IMG/VR virus record: IMGVR_UViG_3300024999_000364
Location: 1 to 25,242 of that record
Reading direction: 5' to 3' (one strand)
Origin: a virus
DNA: 25,242 nucleotides
The position numbers and the translations under genes were made by a program. The notes below the pieces were generated by a model. The model was not told where the DNA came from. It was given only the letters and a program-made list of their open reading frames with translations, and searched no databases. This document shows positions 6,226 to 22,082 of the stretch, piece after piece; position 1 is the first letter of the stretch, and each line of letters begins with the position of its first letter.

Positions 6226-6810
6226 ATGAGATCATTTGATCCTAAAGGACAGGTTATTAAAAATGATGCAGGAATAACGTTAGACCGCGCTTTCTTAGCT
6301 CATATGAGTTGGTCCACCACTCAGGCAGTTGCGGCTAGTGACACCGGAGTACATGCGGCGGTGGCCTTAACTGCCGAAGCCCAAGCGGTCACGACTGTAA
6401 TCACGAATCCAGTGGTACCGCGAAGTATTCGAATCAAAGGGAATGCTGCGGGGATAGCTGGTAATGTTGTTATTACCGGAACAAACTACGTTGGCGCTGC
6501 TATCACAGAGACTATCGCATTAAATGGAGCTACTGCCGTTGAAGGAACGAAAGCATTTAAGACAGTCACAAAAATTGATCTGCCCATAGAAACTCATGCT
6601 GGAACCGACACCGTAAGCGTTGGCTGGGGAGACAAACTTGGTTTACCCTATAAGCTCGCTCACAATACCGTCTTGGCGGCATACCACGACAACACAAAGG
6701 AAGCGACAGCCGCCACTGTGGCAGTATCCGCAACAGCACTCGAGTCAAACACGGTCGACCTTAACACAGCACTTAATGGTAAGGTTGTCGACGTCTACCT
6801 GATGGTGTGA
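6226..6810 (+). CDS. Putative head decoration or head-fibre-like protein (194 aa)
   Basis: A beta-rich, Ala/Thr/Val-rich protein without membrane or cysteine motifs. It contains GNVVITGTNYVG and later GWGDKLGLP, NTVLAAY and VDLNTALNG, motifs I recall from uncharacterised virion proteins encoded beside capsid genes. High alanine and threonine, acidic balance and location between connector and head-closure genes fit a capsid-surface (decoration) protein. A ribosome site TTGGAGGT precedes the ATG. Alternatives are a second minor tail-tube component or an unknown neck factor. The function is inferred from composition and place only. Confidence 0.55.
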   Translation: MRSFDPKGQVIKNDAGITLDRAFLAHMSWSTTQAVAASDTGVHAAVALTAEAQAVTTVITNPVVPRSIRIKGNAAGIAGNVVITGTNYVGAAITETIALNGATAVEGTKAFKTVTKIDLPIETHAGTDTVSVGWGDKLGLPYKLAHNTVLAAYHDNTKEATAATVAVSATALESNTVDLNTALNGKVVDVYLMV

Positions 6811-6823
6811 TGAGGTGGTTTAA

Positions 6824-7129
6824 ATGGGCAGGCAAGATCAAGCTGTTTATTTGATTAGCTCCACAGTCGTTCCGGATAACCTCGGTAACCAGATTAAGGT
6901 ACCCGCGGAACGTCTAGTCTTCGGCGAAGAACTCTCGGTAGGATCCGGTGAATTCTACAATGCTGCAGTCGCTGGTCTTCGTCCTGAAAAGCGATTCGAA
7001 ATATACACGCGTGAATACCAAGGTGAAGAAAAACTGAAGCACAACGCCGTTACCTACCGTATCATCCGTACAGAAGGACGCGGAGAAAAGATCCGCCTGA
7101 GCTGTGAAAGGGTGGCTGCCGATGGCTAA
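6824..7129 (+). CDS. Head closure / head-tail joining protein (101 aa)
   Basis: Short beta-barrel type neck protein that seals the head after packaging. ERLVFGEELSVGSGEFYNAA and the later HNAVTYRIIRTEGRGEKIRLSCE follow the pattern of the SPP1 gp16 / phage head-tail-joining family, whose usual size is 100-115 residues. A ribosome site GAGGTGG lies before the ATG. The last 8 bases overlap the start of the next gene, giving translational coupling to the gp10-like protein. Confidence 0.75.
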   Translation: MGRQDQAVYLISSTVVPDNLGNQIKVPAERLVFGEELSVGSGEFYNAAVAGLRPEKRFEIYTREYQGEEKLKHNAVTYRIIRTEGRGEKIRLSCERVAADG

Positions 7130-7511
7130 TGGTATCCGAATCGATCAACTGGGTGACGCAATCGCAAGTGCAGTCAGGGAATACACGGAAGATGTGTCTG
7201 CAGCGATCGCAAGAAAAACAGATGAAGTAGCGCAGACAATGCTTGTAGAGATTGCTCAGGCTGCCCCTTTTCGCAATGGTAACTATGCGAGGGCCTTAAT
7301 TATTTCGTCAAAAGACGAGTACGGAAAAACTAGGCGTATTATCTGGAATAAGAAATACTACAACCTAGTCCATTTACTCGAATTCGGTCACGCCTTGCGC
7401 GGTGGAGGAAGAGCTCGGGCCTTCCCGCATTTCTTCCCTGCGTATATGCGGAATAAACAGGAACTACCGGATCACATTCGAAGGATCATCGAACGAGGTG
7501 GAGATGTGTAA
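7122..7511 (+). CDS. HK97 gp10-like neck / tail-completion protein (129 aa)
   Basis: Minor neck protein of the gp10 family (HK97_gp10_put). Typical features are an N-terminal helix, APFRNGNYARAL near residue 50, then YNLVHLLEFGHALRGGGRARAFPHFFPA, a signature that gives the family its LEFGH core, and a helical end. An in-frame GTG 18 bases upstream is possible, but I chose the ATG because GAAAGGGTGG lies at the right spacing before it. It overlaps the head-closure gene by 8 bases. Confidence 0.85.
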   Translation: MANGIRIDQLGDAIASAVREYTEDVSAAIARKTDEVAQTMLVEIAQAAPFRNGNYARALIISSKDEYGKTRRIIWNKKYYNLVHLLEFGHALRGGGRARAFPHFFPAYMRNKQELPDHIRRIIERGGDV

Positions 7512-7513
7512 GT

Positions 7514-7792
7514 ATGTTTTGGAAGAAATGGTTCAAAAAGAAAAGGCCAGCAGGAAGCTTAACGTTCGGCGTTAAAATAACCGAATGCAAAAAGTGTGAT
7601 AAGTTCAATAAGGGGACTGAACTTTATAATCTATTTGACTGGCAATATAAAGGTGTCATGGGATATGACAAAGAAACCAACGAGATTCTGTTAGCCGAGG
7701 AACAACTTATGCGTATTATCCAAATGGTAAATCCAGCACAACTCCCACGCAAAATCAGACTAGTTAGTCAAGAAGAGATTTGGAAACGGTAG
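7514..7792 (+). CDS. Hypothetical protein in the neck module (92 aa)
   Basis: Not recognised. It starts with a very basic, aromatic segment (MFWKKWFKKKRP), has a single CKKC pair near residue 25, and ends in a charged helix. It starts 2 bases after the gp10-like stop, with GAGGTGGAGA upstream, and lies in the same tight operon. One CxxC alone is not enough to claim a zinc site. Its place between gp10-like and tail-terminator genes is often empty in related modules, so it may be a lineage-specific addition. Confidence 0.7.
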   Translation: MFWKKWFKKKRPAGSLTFGVKITECKKCDKFNKGTELYNLFDWQYKGVMGYDKETNEILLAEEQLMRIIQMVNPAQLPRKIRLVSQEEIWKR

Positions 7793-7804
7793 GAGGGTGG
7801 ATGT

Positions 7805-8140
7805 ATGACGCAACCCGAATTATTAGCAACACTCGAAAGCCTCGGTATGCCAGTGGCCTACAGCGAGTTCGTATCCACCCTTGAGAATCCTGCTCCGCCT
7901 CCTCCGTTTATCACGTATCAATTCGCCAACGACGATGATTTCAAGGCTGACAATCAAAACTATGTTGAGATTAGTAGTTTTAATATCGAGCTCTACACGA
8001 ACAAAAAAGATCCAGTCAGCGAGAAATTAGTCCAGGATAAACTCAAGGAACTACGCTTACCTTATTCAAAGTCCGAAACATGGATCGACTCAGAAAAAAT
8101 GTTCCAAGTAGTCTATACAATACAACTAATAGGAGGTTAA
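7805..8140 (+). CDS. Tail terminator / tail-completion protein (111 aa)
   Basis: Likely the ring that ends tail-tube growth and binds the neck. The short sequence has a Pro-rich turn (ENPAPPPPFITYQF) after an N-terminal helix, then FNIELYTNKKDP and a C-terminal VVYTIQLIGG strand. This is the pattern I associate with Firmicute tail-completion proteins placed immediately before the major tail protein. Ribosome site GTAGGAGGGTGG is strong. The gene ends 3 bases before the major tail gene. Confidence 0.7.
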   Translation: MTQPELLATLESLGMPVAYSEFVSTLENPAPPPPFITYQFANDDDFKADNQNYVEISSFNIELYTNKKDPVSEKLVQDKLKELRLPYSKSETWIDSEKMFQVVYTIQLIGG

Positions 8141-8143
8141 CGC

Positions 8144-9037
8144 ATGAACAAAGTTACGTACGGTCTTGAAGATGTTCATATCGCATTCAAAGGCGTAGCT
8201 CAAGTTGAATCTATCGAGGTTACAGCCGGATGTTCTACTGATGGCGAGATAACCGTGACGGTAACATCGGCGGCAGTTACTGGCTCACCCTTGGGTGTTA
8301 AAGTTGCGCTAGCAGCAGAGTCCCACGCAACAGCAACTCAGGTTGCAAGTGCGGTTTGTAATACACTGAACAACAACGCCGCCATCAGCGAGGACTTTGT
8401 GGCAAGCAACGTAGGTGGAGTAATTAAATTAACAGCAAAAGTCGTCGCGGCTAACGATGCTACACTAGCAATTGCTTTCACTCCAGGAGCAACAGGCGTA
8501 ACCGTCGGGGCATCAACTGCAGTTGCGGCAGGAGCAACCGGCTGGGGTGTACCAACTGCAATTCCAGGAGCGGTAAGATTTACACCAACAGCACAAGGCC
8601 AAGAATCAACATTCTACGCAGACAACGGCCCGTACTTCGTTGTTACTGCCAATAATGGTTACACTGCCGAGTTGGAAATGGCCCTTGTGCCCGATTCAGT
8701 GCTGGTCGAAATGCTTGGATGGGAAATTGACTCTAACGGAATGATGGTCGAGATTGCATCAGGCGTGCCTAAACGGTTTGCACTGCTTGGGCAGGTTGAG
8801 GGAGACGATAAGAATCGGCGTTTCGTTTACTACGATTGCCAAGCGTCCAGACCAGCTAAAGAGGAGAAAACCAAAGGCGAAACAATCGAGCCTAACACCG
8901 ATGTTTTAAATCTAACCATATTCCCAATTGAAATCGGCGGCAAGGATATCCCGAAAGGTGTCATGGAATTATCGGCAACAAATACTGCAGCTTATAACGC
9001 ATTCTTCGATGCTGTATATGTCCCAGTATTTGCATAA
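8144..9037 (+). CDS. Major tail (tube) protein with an inserted beta domain (297 aa)
   Basis: Subunit of the tail tube. The ends fit the phi13-type major tail family: MNKVTYGLEDVHIAFKG at the start, then GWGVPTAIPGAVRFTPTAQG, TFYADNGPYF, TAELEMALVPD and a later FVYYDCQASRP. Between residues about 21 and 133 an Ala/Val/Thr-rich segment (begins VESIEVTAGC, contains ITVTVTSAAVTGSPLGVKVA and NDATLAIAF) interrupts the N-terminal strand. It explains the length of 297 against roughly 190 for the usual family member. The segment reads as an Ig-like or similar beta-sandwich that would project from the tube. Ribosome site AGGAGGT precedes the ATG. Confidence 0.85.
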   Translation: MNKVTYGLEDVHIAFKGVAQVESIEVTAGCSTDGEITVTVTSAAVTGSPLGVKVALAAESHATATQVASAVCNTLNNNAAISEDFVASNVGGVIKLTAKVVAANDATLAIAFTPGATGVTVGASTAVAAGATGWGVPTAIPGAVRFTPTAQGQESTFYADNGPYFVVTANNGYTAELEMALVPDSVLVEMLGWEIDSNGMMVEIASGVPKRFALLGQVEGDDKNRRFVYYDCQASRPAKEEKTKGETIEPNTDVLNLTIFPIEIGGKDIPKGVMELSATNTAAYNAFFDAVYVPVFA

Positions 9038-12240: not shown

Positions 12241-13652
12241 TGGGTACAGTCATCAAGATTACGCCACCAGGAGGAGCGCAGCAAGAAGTATTTGCCTACC
12301 AAACGTGCCAGACAAAGCTATCCGCAACGGATCGCGCAGGGTCATTTAGTCTAGAGCTTCCGGCGCCTGATAATTCGCTTATCGACGCTTTCCCTGTCGG
12401 ATCAGACGTGCAAATCACGCAAGATGAGAATTTATTTCGTGGTTGGGTCGTTAAACCACCAAAAGCCCTGGACGGAACTGTCAGAACGCTAAGCCTAGAA
12501 GGATCTACGTACACAGCCAGAACGCAAAAGATTATCGTCACAGAGAGTTACACAAATACAGCAATTAGTGACATTGTGATCGACTTATTCACCAAATACG
12601 TTCCCTGGGCAACGAGAACTAACATCCAACCATGCGCGAAGACGATAACAATCCGCTTTGGTGACGATTACTTATGGGATGCCATGGAGCAACTTTGTCA
12701 GATTGCCGCCTATGAATGGTATATCGATGAGGAGTTGGATGTTAATTTCTTCGGCGGATCAGAGCGGATAAACCCAATCACACTAAGCCAGGCAAGTCGG
12801 AACTTCAGAAAAGGGACCGCAAATCTTAGCCCTGATGCCAGTAAGCTTGTGAATAAGTTGTGGGTAAAGGGAGGTAAGGCAACATCCGATCCGTACACAC
12901 AAGCCATAACTGTAAGCGCAGAAACGCCGATACAACTTTACTATACTCCAAGGGCGCCAGATGGAGAAAGTGTGGCGGTGCTGATCGGCGGAGTGCCAAA
13001 AACAGTTGGAATTCAAAACCTAGATAAGGCAGAAACCAAGGATTTCCTCCTGAACGTAAGTGAAAAACTACTCATACCTGACCTTTGTACATCGGGTACC
13101 GGATCAATCACTTATCGTTATGAGTATCCGATCAAATTACTACTTGAAGATCAGGAGTCTCAAGCAAAATACGGCCTATTTGAAGATGTCCTGAAGGTGA
13201 ACACAAATGACAAGGTGCTGGCCTATGATCAAGGACTTGACTACCTTGCCAAATACGCAAATCCCGTAATTACCGGAAGTATCGAGCCAGCATATGGAGT
13301 GTATCGACCTGGCGAACTCGTTAAAGTAGAGATTCCAGGACTCAATGTAAATGAATATTTGCAAATAAAAGAAGTCACCTACGAGTCGGTGACGGGCATG
13401 GGAATTGTTAATCGATCGCTCCAACTGGTAAGCAGGGAGCGTGATGCGGTGAGCATCTTAAAGGACCTTAATAAGCGCCTAGCTAAACTGGAGAAAACCT
13501 TATATAACGACAACGAAGGACCGGTTGAGAAGTATGTTTATTTTGCGGACAGCATTGTGACTCCGGAGTTTGTTGACGATGGGCTTACTTGGTCATTACA
13601 TCAATACCATATTTGTGGCCAAACGATGTGCAGTGCGGGGGTGATTATGTGA
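12240..13652 (+). CDS. Baseplate hub / late-control-D-like tail protein (470 aa)
   Basis: Likely central hub at the tail tip. The N-terminal 110 residues (DRAGSFSLELP, GSDVQITQDENLFRGWV) and the middle region (LWDAMEQLCQIAAYEWYIDE) match the general pattern of XkdQ/gpD-like hub proteins. A helical segment (DLNKRLAKLEKTL) and a short tail lie at the end. The GTG start overlaps the tape measure stop by one base, with GGCGGTGA upstream. No separate distal-tail (Dit) gene lies between tape measure and this gene, so the hub may attach directly to the tube. The product could also be called Tal-like; I cannot separate these without structure. Confidence 0.65.
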   Translation: MGTVIKITPPGGAQQEVFAYQTCQTKLSATDRAGSFSLELPAPDNSLIDAFPVGSDVQITQDENLFRGWVVKPPKALDGTVRTLSLEGSTYTARTQKIIVTESYTNTAISDIVIDLFTKYVPWATRTNIQPCAKTITIRFGDDYLWDAMEQLCQIAAYEWYIDEELDVNFFGGSERINPITLSQASRNFRKGTANLSPDASKLVNKLWVKGGKATSDPYTQAITVSAETPIQLYYTPRAPDGESVAVLIGGVPKTVGIQNLDKAETKDFLLNVSEKLLIPDLCTSGTGSITYRYEYPIKLLLEDQESQAKYGLFEDVLKVNTNDKVLAYDQGLDYLAKYANPVITGSIEPAYGVYRPGELVKVEIPGLNVNEYLQIKEVTYESVTGMGIVNRSLQLVSRERDAVSILKDLNKRLAKLEKTLYNDNEGPVEKYVYFADSIVTPEFVDDGLTWSLHQYHICGQTMCSAGVIM

Positions 13653-16241: not shown

Positions 16242-16646
16242 ATGGCAAACTTACTAAAACACTTAATCAGAGATGTCGCCGGTATCGTCGTCCCGCAATA
16301 TCTCAAGGAAGATGAGTCAGATTTTGAGGCTGTGAAGGGGAAAGATGGGGCGCTGAACGTAAATGCTTACGTTGTTGGGAGTTTAGCGAACGTTTCTAAT
16401 GTGCTAAATGTGACTACGGCAGGAACAAGAGTACAACTTCCAGATATACCTTGTCGAGAAGTAACATTAATTGCTAAACGCACAGTTACTGGATACATTT
16501 ACGCAGGAGATAGTTTAGTTAGTAATCTTAGATACGGAGTTGAACTTGCTTCTAAGGAGGCTTTTACCTTTGCGGTGGCAAACGCTAATCAAGTGTGGAT
16601 TGATTCCTCAGTAAGTGGGGAGGGGATTTCTTATGTCGCAATCTAG
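16242..16646 (+). CDS. Putative tail-tip / virion surface protein (134 aa)
   Basis: No named family. After a helical start (MANLLKHLIRDVAGIVVPQY) the protein is mainly beta, with LPDIPCREVTLIAKRTVTGY and a Val/Ala-rich end (VWIDSSVSGEGISYVAI). I recall similar sequences from phage surface or fibre genes but cannot name the fold. An ATG 21 bases upstream is possible; I chose 16242 because GAGGAAGGGG lies before it. It overlaps the next gene by 14 bases, so the two are coupled and probably form one structure. Confidence 0.65.
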   Translation: MANLLKHLIRDVAGIVVPQYLKEDESDFEAVKGKDGALNVNAYVVGSLANVSNVLNVTTAGTRVQLPDIPCREVTLIAKRTVTGYIYAGDSLVSNLRYGVELASKEAFTFAVANANQVWIDSSVSGEGISYVAI

Positions 16647-17991: not shown

Positions 17992-18031
17992 TTTAAACCT
18001 TCGCTAAAGATACAAACGTATTTGACCCAAC

Positions 18032-18056
18032 AAAAAAGCCCCCAATCAAGGGGACT
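18032..18056 (-). terminator. Rho-independent terminator of the recombinase operon
   Basis: Read on the minus strand: AGTCCCC, loop TTGATT, GGGGGCT (seven pairs, one G-U) followed by six T. It lies 5 bases after the recombinase stop codon. On the plus strand no T run follows, so late transcripts from the tail genes are not expected to stop here. Confidence 0.85.
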
Positions 18057-18061
18057 CCGCA

Positions 18062-18940
18062 TCAGTTTACCAAAAACTTATCATACATCCTTGCCATCTC
18101 AGAACCGTTAATATTTGTGTACCTGCGAGTAGTCTCAGTGCTATGGTGGCCTAGTAACCGAGCAATAAAATCGATATCCGCCCCCTGCTCATACATCCCT
18201 GTTGCAAAGGTGTGACGGAGCATGTGGGGAGTTACTTTATCCTTTATCCCTGCCTTCTTAGCCTGATCCTTGATCTGCATCTCGATTGACCGGATCGTCA
18301 AGCGTTCGCCGTACTTATTGACGAGCAGTGCAGGGTTATCATCTTTCCGCGTGTTAAGATAGCTGATAATGCAAAATTTCGCAATCGGTCCGAAAAAGAC
18401 GAGTCGCTCCTTATTTCCCTTGCCGGTAACTCTTATCTGGCGATTGGTCATGATCAAATCATCACGGTTGAGTTTTACGAGTTCGCCAATTCGCATGCCT
18501 GACGATACGAGCAACTCCATGATAGCTTGATTGCGAGGTGATTTTGGATGCCATCGTAACAGTTCAACATCCTCGTGGCTCAAATTACGCGGTAACATAT
18601 CTGGCTCCCTTGGCGCCTTGATCTTACGCATAGGATTTTTCTCAAGATACTCCTCCTCAACCAACCACGTAAAATATGCCTTGAGGGTTGATATCTTGCG
18701 GTTGATACTGCGTTGGGCCATCTCGTTGAATTGGGTTAAGTAGCTACGCAAGTCGTTTGTCGTAGCATCGACGGATGGCTTGTCCAAGTATTTTGCAAAC
18801 TTTCTTAGCTCCATTCTGTATTGATCCAGTGTTCCATCAGCTAAGCCCTCTAGCTTTCTTGCAACTAAAAATTCCTGAACATATCTCATCTCTCTATCGC
18901 TCCTCTTTCTAGGACCGGAGCATCGTGGTATAATGTCCAT
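18062..18940 (-). CDS. Tyrosine recombinase / integrase, XerD-like (292 aa)
   Basis: Site-specific recombinase. An N-terminal core-binding domain (residues 18-105, YVQEFLVARKLEGLADGTLD) precedes the catalytic domain with Arg150 in SGMRIGE, Lys174 in GKGNKERL, His239 and Arg242 in PHMLRHTFAT, His265 in LLGHHS and Tyr274 in RRYTNIN, so it is intact. The size and compact fold resemble XerC/D more than lambda-type integrases. Two starts are possible: ATG 18940, whose CGGAG site lies inside hairpins, and ATG 18889, with AGGAG upstream and matching the domain start better. It may integrate the phage or resolve dimers of a plasmid form. It is the third gene of a minus-strand operon lying across the late region. 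Confidence 0.92.
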   Translation of the reverse strand: MDIIPRCSGPRKRSDREMRYVQEFLVARKLEGLADGTLDQYRMELRKFAKYLDKPSVDATTNDLRSYLTQFNEMAQRSINRKISTLKAYFTWLVEEEYLEKNPMRKIKAPREPDMLPRNLSHEDVELLRWHPKSPRNQAIMELLVSSGMRIGELVKLNRDDLIMTNRQIRVTGKGNKERLVFFGPIAKFCIISYLNTRKDDNPALLVNKYGERLTIRSIEMQIKDQAKKAGIKDKVTPHMLRHTFATGMYEQGADIDFIARLLGHHSTETTRRYTNINGSEMARMYDKFLVN

Positions 18941-18997
18941 GACACTCCGGTGTCGCGTTAAGCACTCGTTCGGCCGGCAAGCTATGGACGGGTGCTT
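18926..18997 (+). ncRNA. Candidate antisense RNA over the recombinase start site
   Basis: On the plus strand an extended -10 box TGGTATAAT (18926-18934) would start RNA near 18941. The RNA would open with GACAC-TCCG-GTGTC (18941-18954), a five-pair stem capped by a UNCG-type tetraloop. A second stem follows, AAGCACTCGT (18960-18969) with ACGGGTGCTT (18988-18997), ten pairs including one G-U. The corresponding pair on the minus-strand RNA would be A-C, so the plus strand is the better folded one. The RNA would be complementary to the ribosome site of the recombinase. No clear T-run terminator is seen; the 3' end is undefined. Inference from sequence only. Confidence 0.35.
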
Positions 18998-19200
18998 TCC
19001 TGTTCGTATTTTGACATTCTTTCATTCAGCCACTTTGCAGATTGTTCGTAGGCACTAGCCCTTCCTTCATGCCATCCGTTCATATTTCCTGTAGCATTTC
19101 GCTTGGAGACTTCGGCACATTCGGCGATAAAATCAACATCATCCTTGATTCCGCTTAAGATTTCGACGAGTTGATCTTTGGTTAGGTTTTCAAATATCAT
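18982..19200 (-). CDS. Small hypothetical protein in the recombinase operon (72 aa)
   Basis: Not recognised. Acidic, helical protein without membrane segments: an N-terminal TKDQLVEILSGIKDDVDFIA helix, then GWHEGRASAYEQSAKWLNER. A very strong ribosome site AAAGGAGGAGC precedes the ATG. A small GC-rich hairpin (GCCGG and CCGGC, 19217-19234) stands just upstream of that site. The last codons lie within the second stem of the candidate antisense RNA. It could be an excision or regulatory factor by position, but nothing in the sequence proves it. Confidence 0.65.
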   Translation of the reverse strand: MIFENLTKDQLVEILSGIKDDVDFIAECAEVSKRNATGNMNGWHEGRASAYEQSAKWLNERMSKYEQESTRP

Positions 19201-19250
19201 GTTTGCTCCTCCTTTCGCCGGTATTGGCCCCGGCTGGCGTTTGGGTTGAG

Positions 19251-19445
19251 TTAGTTAACCAAGCATTTTGCGTATTCATATCCGTGCATGTAAGCATCAA
19301 ATAAAGTATTTATATATCCATCGGTATACCACACGCCTTTTATTCCTGACTTATCTCTTTCCACATTGTGTCCATAGGTTATTTCTTTCACATTTTTCTC
19401 GAATTGCGTCATTAGATCGCAGAATTCTTTGTCACCTTTTCGCAT
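19251..19445 (-). CDS. Small hypothetical protein, first gene of the recombinase operon (64 aa)
   Basis: Not recognised. Helical and charged, with GYINTLFDAYMHGYEYAKCL near its end. The ribosome site GAGGGGG is followed by an A-rich spacer and ATG. Its promoter (TTGATT, 17 bases, TATAAT on the minus strand) lies about 35 bases upstream and carries a repeated operator. It is followed by the 72-residue gene and the recombinase, apparently on one transcript. Confidence 0.65.
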   Translation of the reverse strand: MRKGDKEFCDLMTQFEKNVKEITYGHNVERDKSGIKGVWYTDGYINTLFDAYMHGYEYAKCLVN

Positions 19446-19477: not shown

Positions 19478-19542
19478 ATTATACCATAGCGTTAGTACAT
19501 AATCAACACTTTTTACACTAGCATTAGTACATTTTTTATGGT
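19478..19542. promoter_or_regulatory. Divergent promoters with a duplicated 14-bp operator
   Basis: Minus-strand promoter: -35 TTGATT (19501-19506), 17-base spacer, -10 TATAAT within TGGTATAAT (19478-19486). Plus-strand promoter: -35 TTTACA (19512-19517), a long 19-base spacer, -10 TATGGT (19537-19542), the weaker of the two. A repeated site, TAGCGTTAGTACAT (19487-19500) and TAGCATTAGTACAT (19519-19532), differs at one base and lies in the same orientation, one copy in each spacer, 32 bases apart. Bound repressor would block both promoters. The ribbon-helix-helix protein encoded next door is the obvious candidate to bind it. Confidence 0.65.
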
Positions 19543-19887: not shown

Positions 19888-20292
19888 ATGAATACTAAAG
19901 AATTTAGTTTCAATACCCTCATTGCAGGTGCAGGAACAATCACAAGCGCATGGTTAGGAGGTTGGGACAAGGCACTGAACGTGCTCGTAGTGATGATGGT
20001 CCTTGACTATGCTATAGGATGCCTCGGGGCCGTAAAGCTGGCAAAGCTCAACAGTGAAGTGATGTTCTGGGGAGGCATACGCAAGATATCCATCCTCACA
20101 GTCGTTGCGCTGGCTGTGCTCTTTGATCAGATGCTAGGCAATCCTGACCCGATTCTTCGCACACTTGCTATTTACTTTTATGCGGCCCGGGAAGGTGTGA
20201 GCGTGACAGAAAACTTAGGCATACTTGGCGTGCCATTGCCTCCTGGAATCGCTCGGGTGCTTGAGCAGTTGCAGGATAAAGGCGGTAAGTGA
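19888..20292 (+). CDS. Phage holin (134 aa)
   Basis: Membrane pore former that times lysis. Three hydrophobic segments are visible (about residues 10-25, 28-48 around LNVLVVMMVLDYAIGCLGAV, and 66-85 around ISILTVVALAVLFD), with a conserved GGIRKISI and a C-terminal charged tail. This fits the toxin-secretion/phage-lysis holin family of Firmicute phages (about 130-145 residues). The ATG is preceded by AAAGGATGG. The stop overlaps the endolysin start in TGATG, so both lysis proteins are coupled. Confidence 0.88.
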   Translation: MNTKEFSFNTLIAGAGTITSAWLGGWDKALNVLVVMMVLDYAIGCLGAVKLAKLNSEVMFWGGIRKISILTVVALAVLFDQMLGNPDPILRTLAIYFYAAREGVSVTENLGILGVPLPPGIARVLEQLQDKGGK

Positions 20293-21848
20293 TGCTCAAG
20301 GAAAACGATGAACCAAGGAGAGATTCTAACTTAAACATCTGGCATAATGCAGGTTATACGGGTAAGGGCGTAAATATCCTCGTCTGTGATTTCAACGGCA
20401 AGATTTATGACCACATGAAGGACTATGCTGTGTTGATCGACCCTGAAGGAGTTATGACGAAAGAGGCTAGGCATAACACATTTGTAGCTCAAGTTGTTCA
20501 TGAGGCGGCTCCTGATGCTACTGTCTATGTAACTCCTTGGACCCACTCATCCAAGGAAATAACCGATTGGCTTAGAGAGAATCCCAAGCTTATTGATATT
20601 GCAGGGGCAAGTTTAACAACTCCTGTGACGGATGATTTCAACATATTTAAGGAACTTGATATTCCGTTTACTGCATCAAGTGGAAATGATTCTGATAAGG
20701 GTAAAAACGGAGTCAACTTCCCTGCTAATCTGGATTGGAATATCGCTGTAGGGGCTTATAACTGGAAAGATAAAGGCGTTAATAGCAACGATGTTACCGG
20801 TTATTCAAACGGTGGCGAAGACTTGGATTGCGTTTCCTTAACTAACATCTATGTCCAGAATGAAGACGGAACATATATTCACCCATACTCAGGAACAAGT
20901 ACATCTCGACCATGGCTAGATGGAAAAATGGGCTGCTACATCCAATGGCGAAAAGAGCATGGTTTACCTAGATTAACTCAAGCTATGGCGAAGAAGTTCG
21001 TTCGCGAAAACTGCATCGACATTAAAGCAAAAGGTTTTGACTACGATTCTGGTCATGGCCTTTTTTGTTTGCCGCCAACAATCCCCGAAATACCAAAGGA
21101 GGAAGATATGTCTGCTCCATACCAACGTACAACACAAGCGATCGTTATTCATCACATGGGCGATAAATTACCTCCGGATGTCTCGATCCTCAAACGATGG
21201 AATCCATACAACTACGATTATCCAGAGTATGATTTCGGCATCGAGGCAGACGGAACGATCCGGATCGGTAGGCCGTTGACTATCCAGGGGGCGCACACAA
21301 CGAGCGATAAGCCGCCTTATTCGCAGTGGGGGCACCAGTGGTGGAATCGTAATACTATCAGCATCGGCTTAGCTGGAGACTTCACTCTGTACCCTATGCC
21401 AAGGGAGCAGTTTAACGCTCTGGTTAGCCTTGTGAAGAGTTTAATGACTAAGTATAGGCTAACACTCGATGAAGTCTATCCACACGGTCAGGTGACGTAT
21501 ACGGATTGCCCGGGGTGCACTTATAGTAAGGTTCCTGCACTCACAAAGGGTAAATGGTCCTACGATGAATTCGAGCGGGCAGTAAGCAAGGAGGAAGATG
21601 ATGTGCTGGATGTAGCGATTTTGTTATACAGCAAGGATGATTATTGGGCCGGGGCTGATGTAGCTGATCGGAACGGCAATTGTGCGATCTTTGTGCGACC
21701 TGCTGATAAGTCAGCGCCGAAGGATGCGATGAGTGCAAAGAAGTTGATCGTTGTTGGTGGGCCGACAGTGGGGCATGCGAACGAGGTGTTATTGTCGGGG
21801 AATGATAGATATGATACGGCGGCTGCTGTGGGGAAGTACTTAGGGTAG
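20292..21848 (+). CDS. Endolysin: S8 protease, zinc amidase and CWB2 domains (518 aa)
   Basis: Cell-wall-degrading enzyme with three domains. Residues 1-260 form a subtilisin-type domain with Asp33 (VCDFNG), His61 (RHNTFVAQVV), oxyanion Asn132 (SSGND) and Ser203 (SGTSTSRP), all intact. Residues about 280-430 are an N-acetylmuramoyl-L-alanine amidase of the PGRP/Amidase_2 type, zinc ligands His287 or 288 (VIHHM), His398 (YPHGQ) and Cys406 (TDCPG). Residues 438-518 resemble a CWB2 wall-binding repeat (LIVVGGPTVGH, SGNDRYDTAAAV). No signal peptide, as expected with a holin. ATG 20292 overlaps the holin stop; GTG 20289 is an alternative. Each linker holds a strong ribosome site, at 21095-21102 (before ATG 21108) and 21588-21594 (before GTG 21603), both in frame. 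Confidence 0.9.
   Translation: MLKENDEPRRDSNLNIWHNAGYTGKGVNILVCDFNGKIYDHMKDYAVLIDPEGVMTKEARHNTFVAQVVHEAAPDATVYVTPWTHSSKEITDWLRENPKLIDIAGASLTTPVTDDFNIFKELDIPFTASSGNDSDKGKNGVNFPANLDWNIAVGAYNWKDKGVNSNDVTGYSNGGEDLDCVSLTNIYVQNEDGTYIHPYSGTSTSRPWLDGKMGCYIQWRKEHGLPRLTQAMAKKFVRENCIDIKAKGFDYDSGHGLFCLPPTIPEIPKEEDMSAPYQRTTQAIVIHHMGDKLPPDVSILKRWNPYNYDYPEYDFGIEADGTIRIGRPLTIQGAHTTSDKPPYSQWGHQWWNRNTISIGLAGDFTLYPMPREQFNALVSLVKSLMTKYRLTLDEVYPHGQVTYTDCPGCTYSKVPALTKGKWSYDEFERAVSKEEDDVLDVAILLYSKDDYWAGADVADRNGNCAIFVRPADKSAPKDAMSAKKLIVVGGPTVGHANEVLLSGNDRYDTAAAVGKYLG
21095..21110 (+). promoter_or_regulatory. Internal ribosome site and ATG inside the endolysin gene
   Basis: AAAGGAGG, five bases, then ATG (21108) in the lysin frame. 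It would make an amidase plus CWB2 protein of 246 residues starting MSAPYQRTTQ, exactly at the linker between protease and amidase domains. Confidence 0.55.
21588..21605 (+). promoter_or_regulatory. Second internal ribosome site and GTG inside the endolysin gene
   Basis: AAGGAGG, eight bases, then GTG (21603) in the lysin frame. It would give an 81-residue wall-binding domain on its own (M/VLDVAILLYSKDD). Two out-of-frame ATG codons nearby compete with it. Confidence 0.4.
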
Positions 21849-21939: not shown

Positions 21940-22060
21940 TACAATGCAAAAAAAAGACCATTTGGGATAATACCCAGCGGCATGGCTGTGACGAACTAAT
22001 AACTCGGTCCAGCCCTTCATAACAAAAAGCCCTCGGCCTTAATTGGTCGGGGGCTTTTTT
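21937..22060 (+). ncRNA. Candidate small RNA, promoter to terminator without a gene
   Basis: An extended -10 box TGATACAAT (21937-21945), preceded by the palindrome TTGTTG-GAGT-CAACAA (21919-21934) over its -35 zone, should start RNA near 21952. The RNA of about 109 nt would hold the stem TGGG/CCCA (21963-21966, 21973-21976), a larger stem with GGCTG (21984-21988) and CAGCC (22010-22014) extended by GAC/GTC and GA/TC, and then the strong terminator. No open frame of note is inside. It may only be a lysis-operon tail, but the promoter argues for a separate transcript. Confidence 0.4.
22024..22060. terminator. Strong bidirectional rho-independent terminator
   Basis: AAAAAGCCCTCGGCC (22024-22038) pairs with GGTCGGGGGCTTTTT (22045-22059), 15 pairs with two G-U, around TTAATT. 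T runs follow on both strands. It separates the plus-strand late genes from the minus-strand cluster that converges on it. Confidence 0.92.
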
Positions 22061-22082
22061 GTGCGTTCTGGTACCCAGCGAT

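Follow-up and report, generated by a model that had tools for sequence, protein, structure and literature searches.

Antisense control has so far been described mainly for insertion-sequence transposases and for plasmid replication. Among the transposase systems, the antisense RNAs of IS10, IS30 and IS200 are presented in the discussion of an article on ISPpu9 as inhibitors that lower the translation or stability of the transposase mRNA (PMC8450116). The sections of the same article drawn on here describe Asr9, the antisense RNA of ISPpu9, as pairing with the transposase leader and appearing to activate it (PMC8450116). The locus described below carries what looks like a comparable arrangement in front of a tyrosine recombinase gene.

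Genomic context and the recombinase start

The window, meaning the whole stretch of DNA analysed (25,242 nt; uncultivated virus record IMGVR_UViG_3300024999_000364), runs from plus-strand tail genes through a minus-strand block to plus-strand holin and amidase genes. The following features were placed in and around the minus-strand block:

18035..18058, minus strand: intrinsic terminator 3' of the recombinase
18062..18889, minus strand: tyrosine recombinase, 275 aa, start placed at ATG 18889
18900..18905, minus strand: recombinase ribosome site, GAGGAG
18914..18951, minus strand: predicted leader hairpin h2 of the recombinase mRNA (GGAGUGUC..GCUCC)
18917..18921, minus strand: anti-ribosome-site GCUCC
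18926..18934, plus strand: extended -10 promoter element, TGGTATAAT, of the predicted antisense RNA, assigned from sequence conservation
18941..18999, plus strand: predicted antisense RNA of ~59 nt, its 5' end placed from the -10 and its 3' end from the stem and a short T-rich tail
18941..18954, plus strand: hairpin 1, GACACTCCGGTGTC (GACAC-UCCG-GUGUC, with a UCCG loop of the UNCG type); 124 of 125 pair cells standard on this strand
18960..18997, plus strand: hairpin 2 (P1), a 10-pair stem with arms AAGCACTCGT (18960-18969) and ACGGGTGCTT (18988-18997), an internal loop and a short inner stem; probable weak terminator
18982..19200, minus strand: small upstream ORF, 72 aa, whose STRP-stop end falls inside P1
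19217..19234, minus strand: element A, a GCCGG..CCGGC hairpin directly 5' of the small ORF ribosome site, kept in relatives
19251-19445, minus strand: second small ORF of the block
19478..19506, minus strand: promoter-like site of the sense operon, TTGATT-17-TATAAT with TG

The sense-operon promoter is overlain by two 22-nt direct repeats (19479-19500 and 19511-19532, 32 nt apart), which are possible operators. In the recombinase relative L155, element A lies directly before the recombinase, where others carry the antisense element. Further along the window, the lysis enzyme (20289-21848) joins a subtilase-like part to an Amidase_2 domain, and a similar enzyme occurs in L156, a prophage of D. 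nitroreducens.

An earlier note on this DNA, made from the sequence alone, had placed the recombinase start at ATG 18940. The start is most likely ATG 18889, with AGAGGAG upstream, for two reasons. A single additional base in L001, the closest relative, shifts the counterpart of ATG 18940 out of frame. In 5 of the 17 leaders examined from the second subfamily (L008, L009, L139, L144 and L160), an in-frame stop occurs no more than six codons ahead of the conserved N-terminus, so that the leader is not coding there. The companion proposal that ACCGGAG serves as the ribosome site is likewise not supported, GAGGAG at 18900..18905 taking this place instead. The ATG is replaced by ACG (L008, L009, L015 and L160) or ATA (L139) in 5 of 17 second-subfamily recombinases, four of which have an in-frame stop just upstream; judging from the sequences, these would represent either unusual start codons or silenced genes.

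Control of the recombinase by RNA had also been thought to suit a lysogeny switch, which is doubtful because the gene lies between tail and lysis genes and, in the Desulfosporosinus prophage and in the record of the closest relative, is not the sole integrase-family gene. L156 encodes a second tyrosine integrase (7683-8639) and an S24/HTH repressor (6759-7340) apart from the recombinase of the element, and the record of the closest relative (G003) holds two PF00589 genes. In the window and in L019, from D. nitroreducens 59.4F, the recombinase adjoins tail-type genes at their convergent end; in L034 this position is taken by the element alone. It is probably an accessory, tail-gene-linked enzyme and not the main lysogeny integrase.

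A conserved TCTTTARCGAAGGYTWAA follows just after the recombinase stop (window 17993-18010, L001 6901 and L022 10959), precisely at the border of the block in common with L001, and is a possible recombination site. A 14-nt pair (16382-16395 and 17995-18008), one of many similar pairs listed, is no more than a lead for an invertible tail segment. Downstream of the element in the record of L014 (G006:C1:22075-26047), one strand carries a run of four to five tyrosine recombinase genes or gene pieces.

Distribution of the element

Relatives were gathered by pattern scans, covariance models of the sense strand (R1) and the plus strand (R2), genome searches and searches for recombinase relatives. 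The element was found in 26 distinct sequences (24 in alignment A7, the distant relative L037, and L160) from viral contigs and from Desulfosporosinus and its relatives; in most cases a tyrosine recombinase, belonging to either of two subfamilies, follows closely. It occurs at one place per record in the records examined with R1, ruling out a gene-cassette or integron-like array, and the best model match falls on the strand opposite the downstream gene. The copy in L001, another viral contig, extends over block 17993-19238 at 88.7% identity, and its retrieved flanks have no further DNA match to the window.

Two Desulfosporosinus genomes were among the four matches of the pattern scan, the other two (L020 and L021) being judged chance. 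Genome-wide searches matched 5 of 45 genomes of the family, 6 of 82 of the class and 2 of 398 of the phylum (one of these judged chance), as well as 2 of the 9 searched in the family to which G090 belongs (again with one judged chance). At a looser cut-off, 9 of 40 family genomes matched, of which four were chance or unclear and one (L045) degenerate. All counts leave aside L045, which resembles a degenerate element preceding what remains of a recombinase, the weak model matches L039, L041 and L046-L049, judged chance or unclear, and a second weak match in the window (21963-22065; 18.3 bits).

The element also occurs away from recombinases: L006 (identical with L007) and L034 keep the promoter and both hairpins without a downstream recombinase, and in L037 the element precedes an IrrE-like peptidase gene. 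These cases, together with a P1 loop sequence that is strongly conserved though non-coding, would fit a plus-strand RNA whose main target is either the small ORF or, in trans, other mRNAs of phage or host, the overlap with the leader being secondary. This reading is unlikely, given that recombinase coding sequence, intact or broken, follows immediately in 23 of the 25 elements made up of A7 and L160, and that a leader switch is predicted across 22 sequences (see below). Conversely, recombinase relatives without the element exist (L145-L148, L154 and L155; L150 is cut at a contig edge), so the element is not obligatory. The ORFs upstream of the element differ, yet they end in STRP-stop or GTRP-stop in 14 distinct loci and in others, though not in L151, L052 and L035.

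In L006, a diversity-generating retroelement (L006:11545-13498) lies beside the RNA element. It includes a reverse transcriptase gene (RVT_1, PF00078; 11865-12884, minus strand) and a 119-nt repeat pair (at 13005 and 13148) in which 21 of 23 differences fall at adenines of one copy, a mark of such retroelements. In the more tentative reading given at the end, its presence at the same spot would make the locus a possible site of host-range diversification whose rate is set by an RNA.

A conserved putative promoter and predicted fold on the plus strand

In the window, TGGTATAAT is one of two occurrences of TGNTATAAT, which is no rarer than chance alone (shuffle mean 1.04), and the case for a promoter therefore rests on the relatives. 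A -10 was found in all 25 sequences compared (promoter, pair-cell and switch counts exclude L160, which was found last), reading TATAAT in 18 and TACAAT in seven. The extended form TGnTATAAT is present in 17, while the eight sequences without TGn (the seven with TACAAT, and L037 with TATAAT) all carry TTG at -35 with a 17-nt spacer, that of L037 being taken from the printed sequence where the script gave a tie at spacer 16. A -35 TTG occurs in only one of the 17 sequences with TGn (L011, spacer 16). From this distribution, the antisense promoter looks to be under selection, with the -35 TTG compensating for a missing extended -10, and the TACAAT sequences, several of which are mutually close, perhaps represent three or four independent lineages. 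Hairpin 1 sits 6 to 12 nt past the -10 in the 25 sequences, and the RNA would thus begin at or just before it. The conservation of promoter and stems supports the original proposal of a plus-strand RNA that starts near 18941 and carries two hairpins, and the positions first given for the promoter, the hairpin and the stem were verified, as was CTCCGGT on the minus strand at 18914-18920.

Several lines of evidence agree with the earlier view that the plus strand is the one that folds. The plus-strand fold of window positions 18941-18999 reaches -27.4 kcal/mol (z -4.05), a value equalled by none of 200 shuffles, compared with -16.6 kcal/mol (z -0.93) on the minus strand; across five sequences tested, z was about -4 on the plus strand in four and -2.3 in L052, and ranged from -0.3 to -2.9 on the minus strand. 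In hairpin 1, the 125 pair cells of 25 sequences comprise 101 Watson-Crick pairs, 23 G.U pairs on the plus strand and one G.U pair on the minus strand, and the loop, UCCG in 22 sequences and UUCG in three, varies only at the N of UNCG. The P1 cells of 23 of the 25 sequences comprise 205 Watson-Crick pairs, with 24 G.U on the plus strand and one on the minus strand; because many sequences share descent, the cell counts for both stems overstate independence, and L037, which was aligned once and is absent from A4 and A7, was entered into the comparison by hand. A single P1 position accounts for 21 of the 24 plus-strand G.U pairs (U.G in 21 of 23, U-A in 2 of 23, and C-G in L037), and the one U.G pair between the arms in the window becomes C.A on the opposite strand. 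L052 has two additional U.G pairs on the plus strand, and L037 has a different, fully paired P1 stem.

Covariation, which had been named as a check, gave a mixed outcome: stems and promoter are conserved and the G.U pairs are valid only on the plus strand, whereas the column-shuffle expectation was not exceeded (94.4% of cells paired in 16 sequences versus a shuffled mean of 95.0%), because most changes are transitions that are compatible with pairing in any combination. In these alignments it is the strand bias of G.U pairs that is the informative signal. Taken together, what lifts the observation above chance is that 26 distinct relatives keep the putative promoter, the loop and the stems. 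As in a cis-encoded antisense RNA, the predicted promoter lies on the strand opposite the leader, and the predicted fold on that strand is conserved.

A strict terminator scan found none at P1, and the tail that follows is T-rich but broken; L037 carries TTTTATTTT there. The window has no match in Rfam 15 at the gathering cut-off. Further Rfam comparisons gave only sub-threshold matches, for instance twister-P1 with 15.3 bits against a cut-off of 67.2. A sense-strand riboswitch was set aside as the main reading, as hairpin 1 and P1 pair better on the plus strand; h2 and the ribosome-site helix stay on the minus strand.

Convergent promoter-like sites within one operon (19478-19506 on the minus strand and 18926-18934 on the plus strand) might instead point to transcriptional interference, in which the antisense promoter cuts sense transcription by collision and the RNA is a by-product. 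This is improbable, as conserved hairpins, plus-only G.U pairs and UNCG loops require a reason at the level of RNA. The same strand-biased pairs argue against the idea that the element is DNA on which the recombinase acts, as an att, dif-like or inversion site, an idea that draws on the 15-nt imperfect inverted repeat with an 8-nt centre at ~18914-18951, upstream of the tyrosine recombinase. Such a site is highly improbable here: the element is common to two divergent recombinase subfamilies, it lies at one place per record with no second copy or partner site, and the conserved sequence at 17993-18010, at the other end of the gene, is a better candidate.

A predicted switch in the recombinase leader

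Three mRNA helices compete in the recombinase leader, namely hairpin 1, h2 (GGAGYGY with RYGCUCC) and a helix of GCUCC with the ribosome site, and the apical loop of h2 is the complement of the antisense -10. In the favoured model, the plus-strand promoter would give rise to a short, stable, two-hairpin antisense RNA whose sequence is the complement of the recombinase mRNA leader and of the final codons of the preceding small ORF. In the free mRNA, the 5' arm GGAGUGUC would pair with GCUCC to form h2, and GGAG of the ribosome site would tend to be open. The bound antisense RNA, whose 5' end coincides with the edge of the arm, would occupy exactly the 5' arm of h2, the freed GCUCC would pair with the ribosome site, and recombinase translation would fall. 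The pairing of ACCGGAG with CTCCGGT on the minus strand, described earlier as hiding the start, does exist; its predicted role is to compete against the helix in which the true ribosome site is concealed.

When the antisense footprint was blocked in silico, the mean predicted openness of GGAG fell from 0.47 (free) to 0.044 (bound) across 22 sequences (all 24 of A7 except L006 and L034, where the recombinase is missing), with a drop of more than 0.05 in 20 of the 22. With the middle shuffled, openness was 0.40 in the free and 0.41 in the bound state, and shuffling the upstream arm lowered the free value to 0.12. For the window, only a small decrease is predicted, from 0.31 to 0.24. Matching changes on both sides (UUUUGCUCC with GGAGCAAAA) lengthen the ribosome-site helix of L052. 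The drop in openness, the shuffle controls and these matching changes therefore favour repression. The opposite sign, with binding activating the recombinase, has a precedent of the same layout in print, in the part of the ISPpu9 article used here (PMC8450116), and the ribosome site is predicted to be closed even when free in L012, L035 and L052. Activation is quite improbable, since a predicted gain in openness on binding never exceeded 0.05 in any of the 22 sequences.

The element thus reads best as a two-strand RNA control device in which the antisense RNA is made, binds the leader and represses translation of the recombinase, a model that we regard, as a whole, as reasonably probable. The computations establish the conservation of the element and its promoter, the folding strand, the recombinase start and a switch predicted in the relatives. 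That the RNA is produced, that it binds and that the effect is repressive are all steps that we infer, and confidence is higher for the predicted existence of the antisense RNA than for the complete statement.

Comparison with known systems

In a wider and more tentative reading, which is possible though not the likeliest outcome, the element would represent a new, portable family of RNA riboregulators that has moved among small-gene cassettes with no relation to one another and between two subfamilies of recombinase, at the end of the tail genes in phages of Desulfosporosinus and relatives, with an antisense promoter placed in the apical loop of a sense switch hairpin, and that sets how often a tail-linked recombinase acts. 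Independently of this wider reading, a conserved antisense RNA and overlapping leader switch at phage tyrosine recombinases would, if true, bring antisense control to the temperate phages of strict anaerobes, add an RNA family that Rfam lacks and provide a directly testable way for phages to keep a recombinase rare. No paper on the element was found in a literature search of open-licence publications.

The proposed switch resembles the replication attenuators of pT181 and pIP501, in which an antisense RNA flips mutually exclusive leader helices, although these act on rep genes and classically via transcription termination. The element is also similar to lambda OOP and P22 sar, short phage RNAs encoded opposite a regulatory gene, whose targets are cII and the antirepressor and not a recombinase leader. 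Compared with IS10, IS30 and IS200, whose targets, as summarised in the ISPpu9 article, are insertion-sequence transposases, the predicted target here is a phage tyrosine recombinase, and the element has no Rfam match. The closest likeness, one of description only, is to Asr9 of ISPpu9, where the sections of the article considered here likewise describe a stable antisense RNA with complementarity to a mobile-element enzyme's leader, and a leader whose folding hides the ribosome site (PMC8450116). In contrast to the present locus, that system involves another enzyme and host, Asr9 is reported there as activating, and a second RNA, Ssr9, counters Asr9 (PMC8450116).
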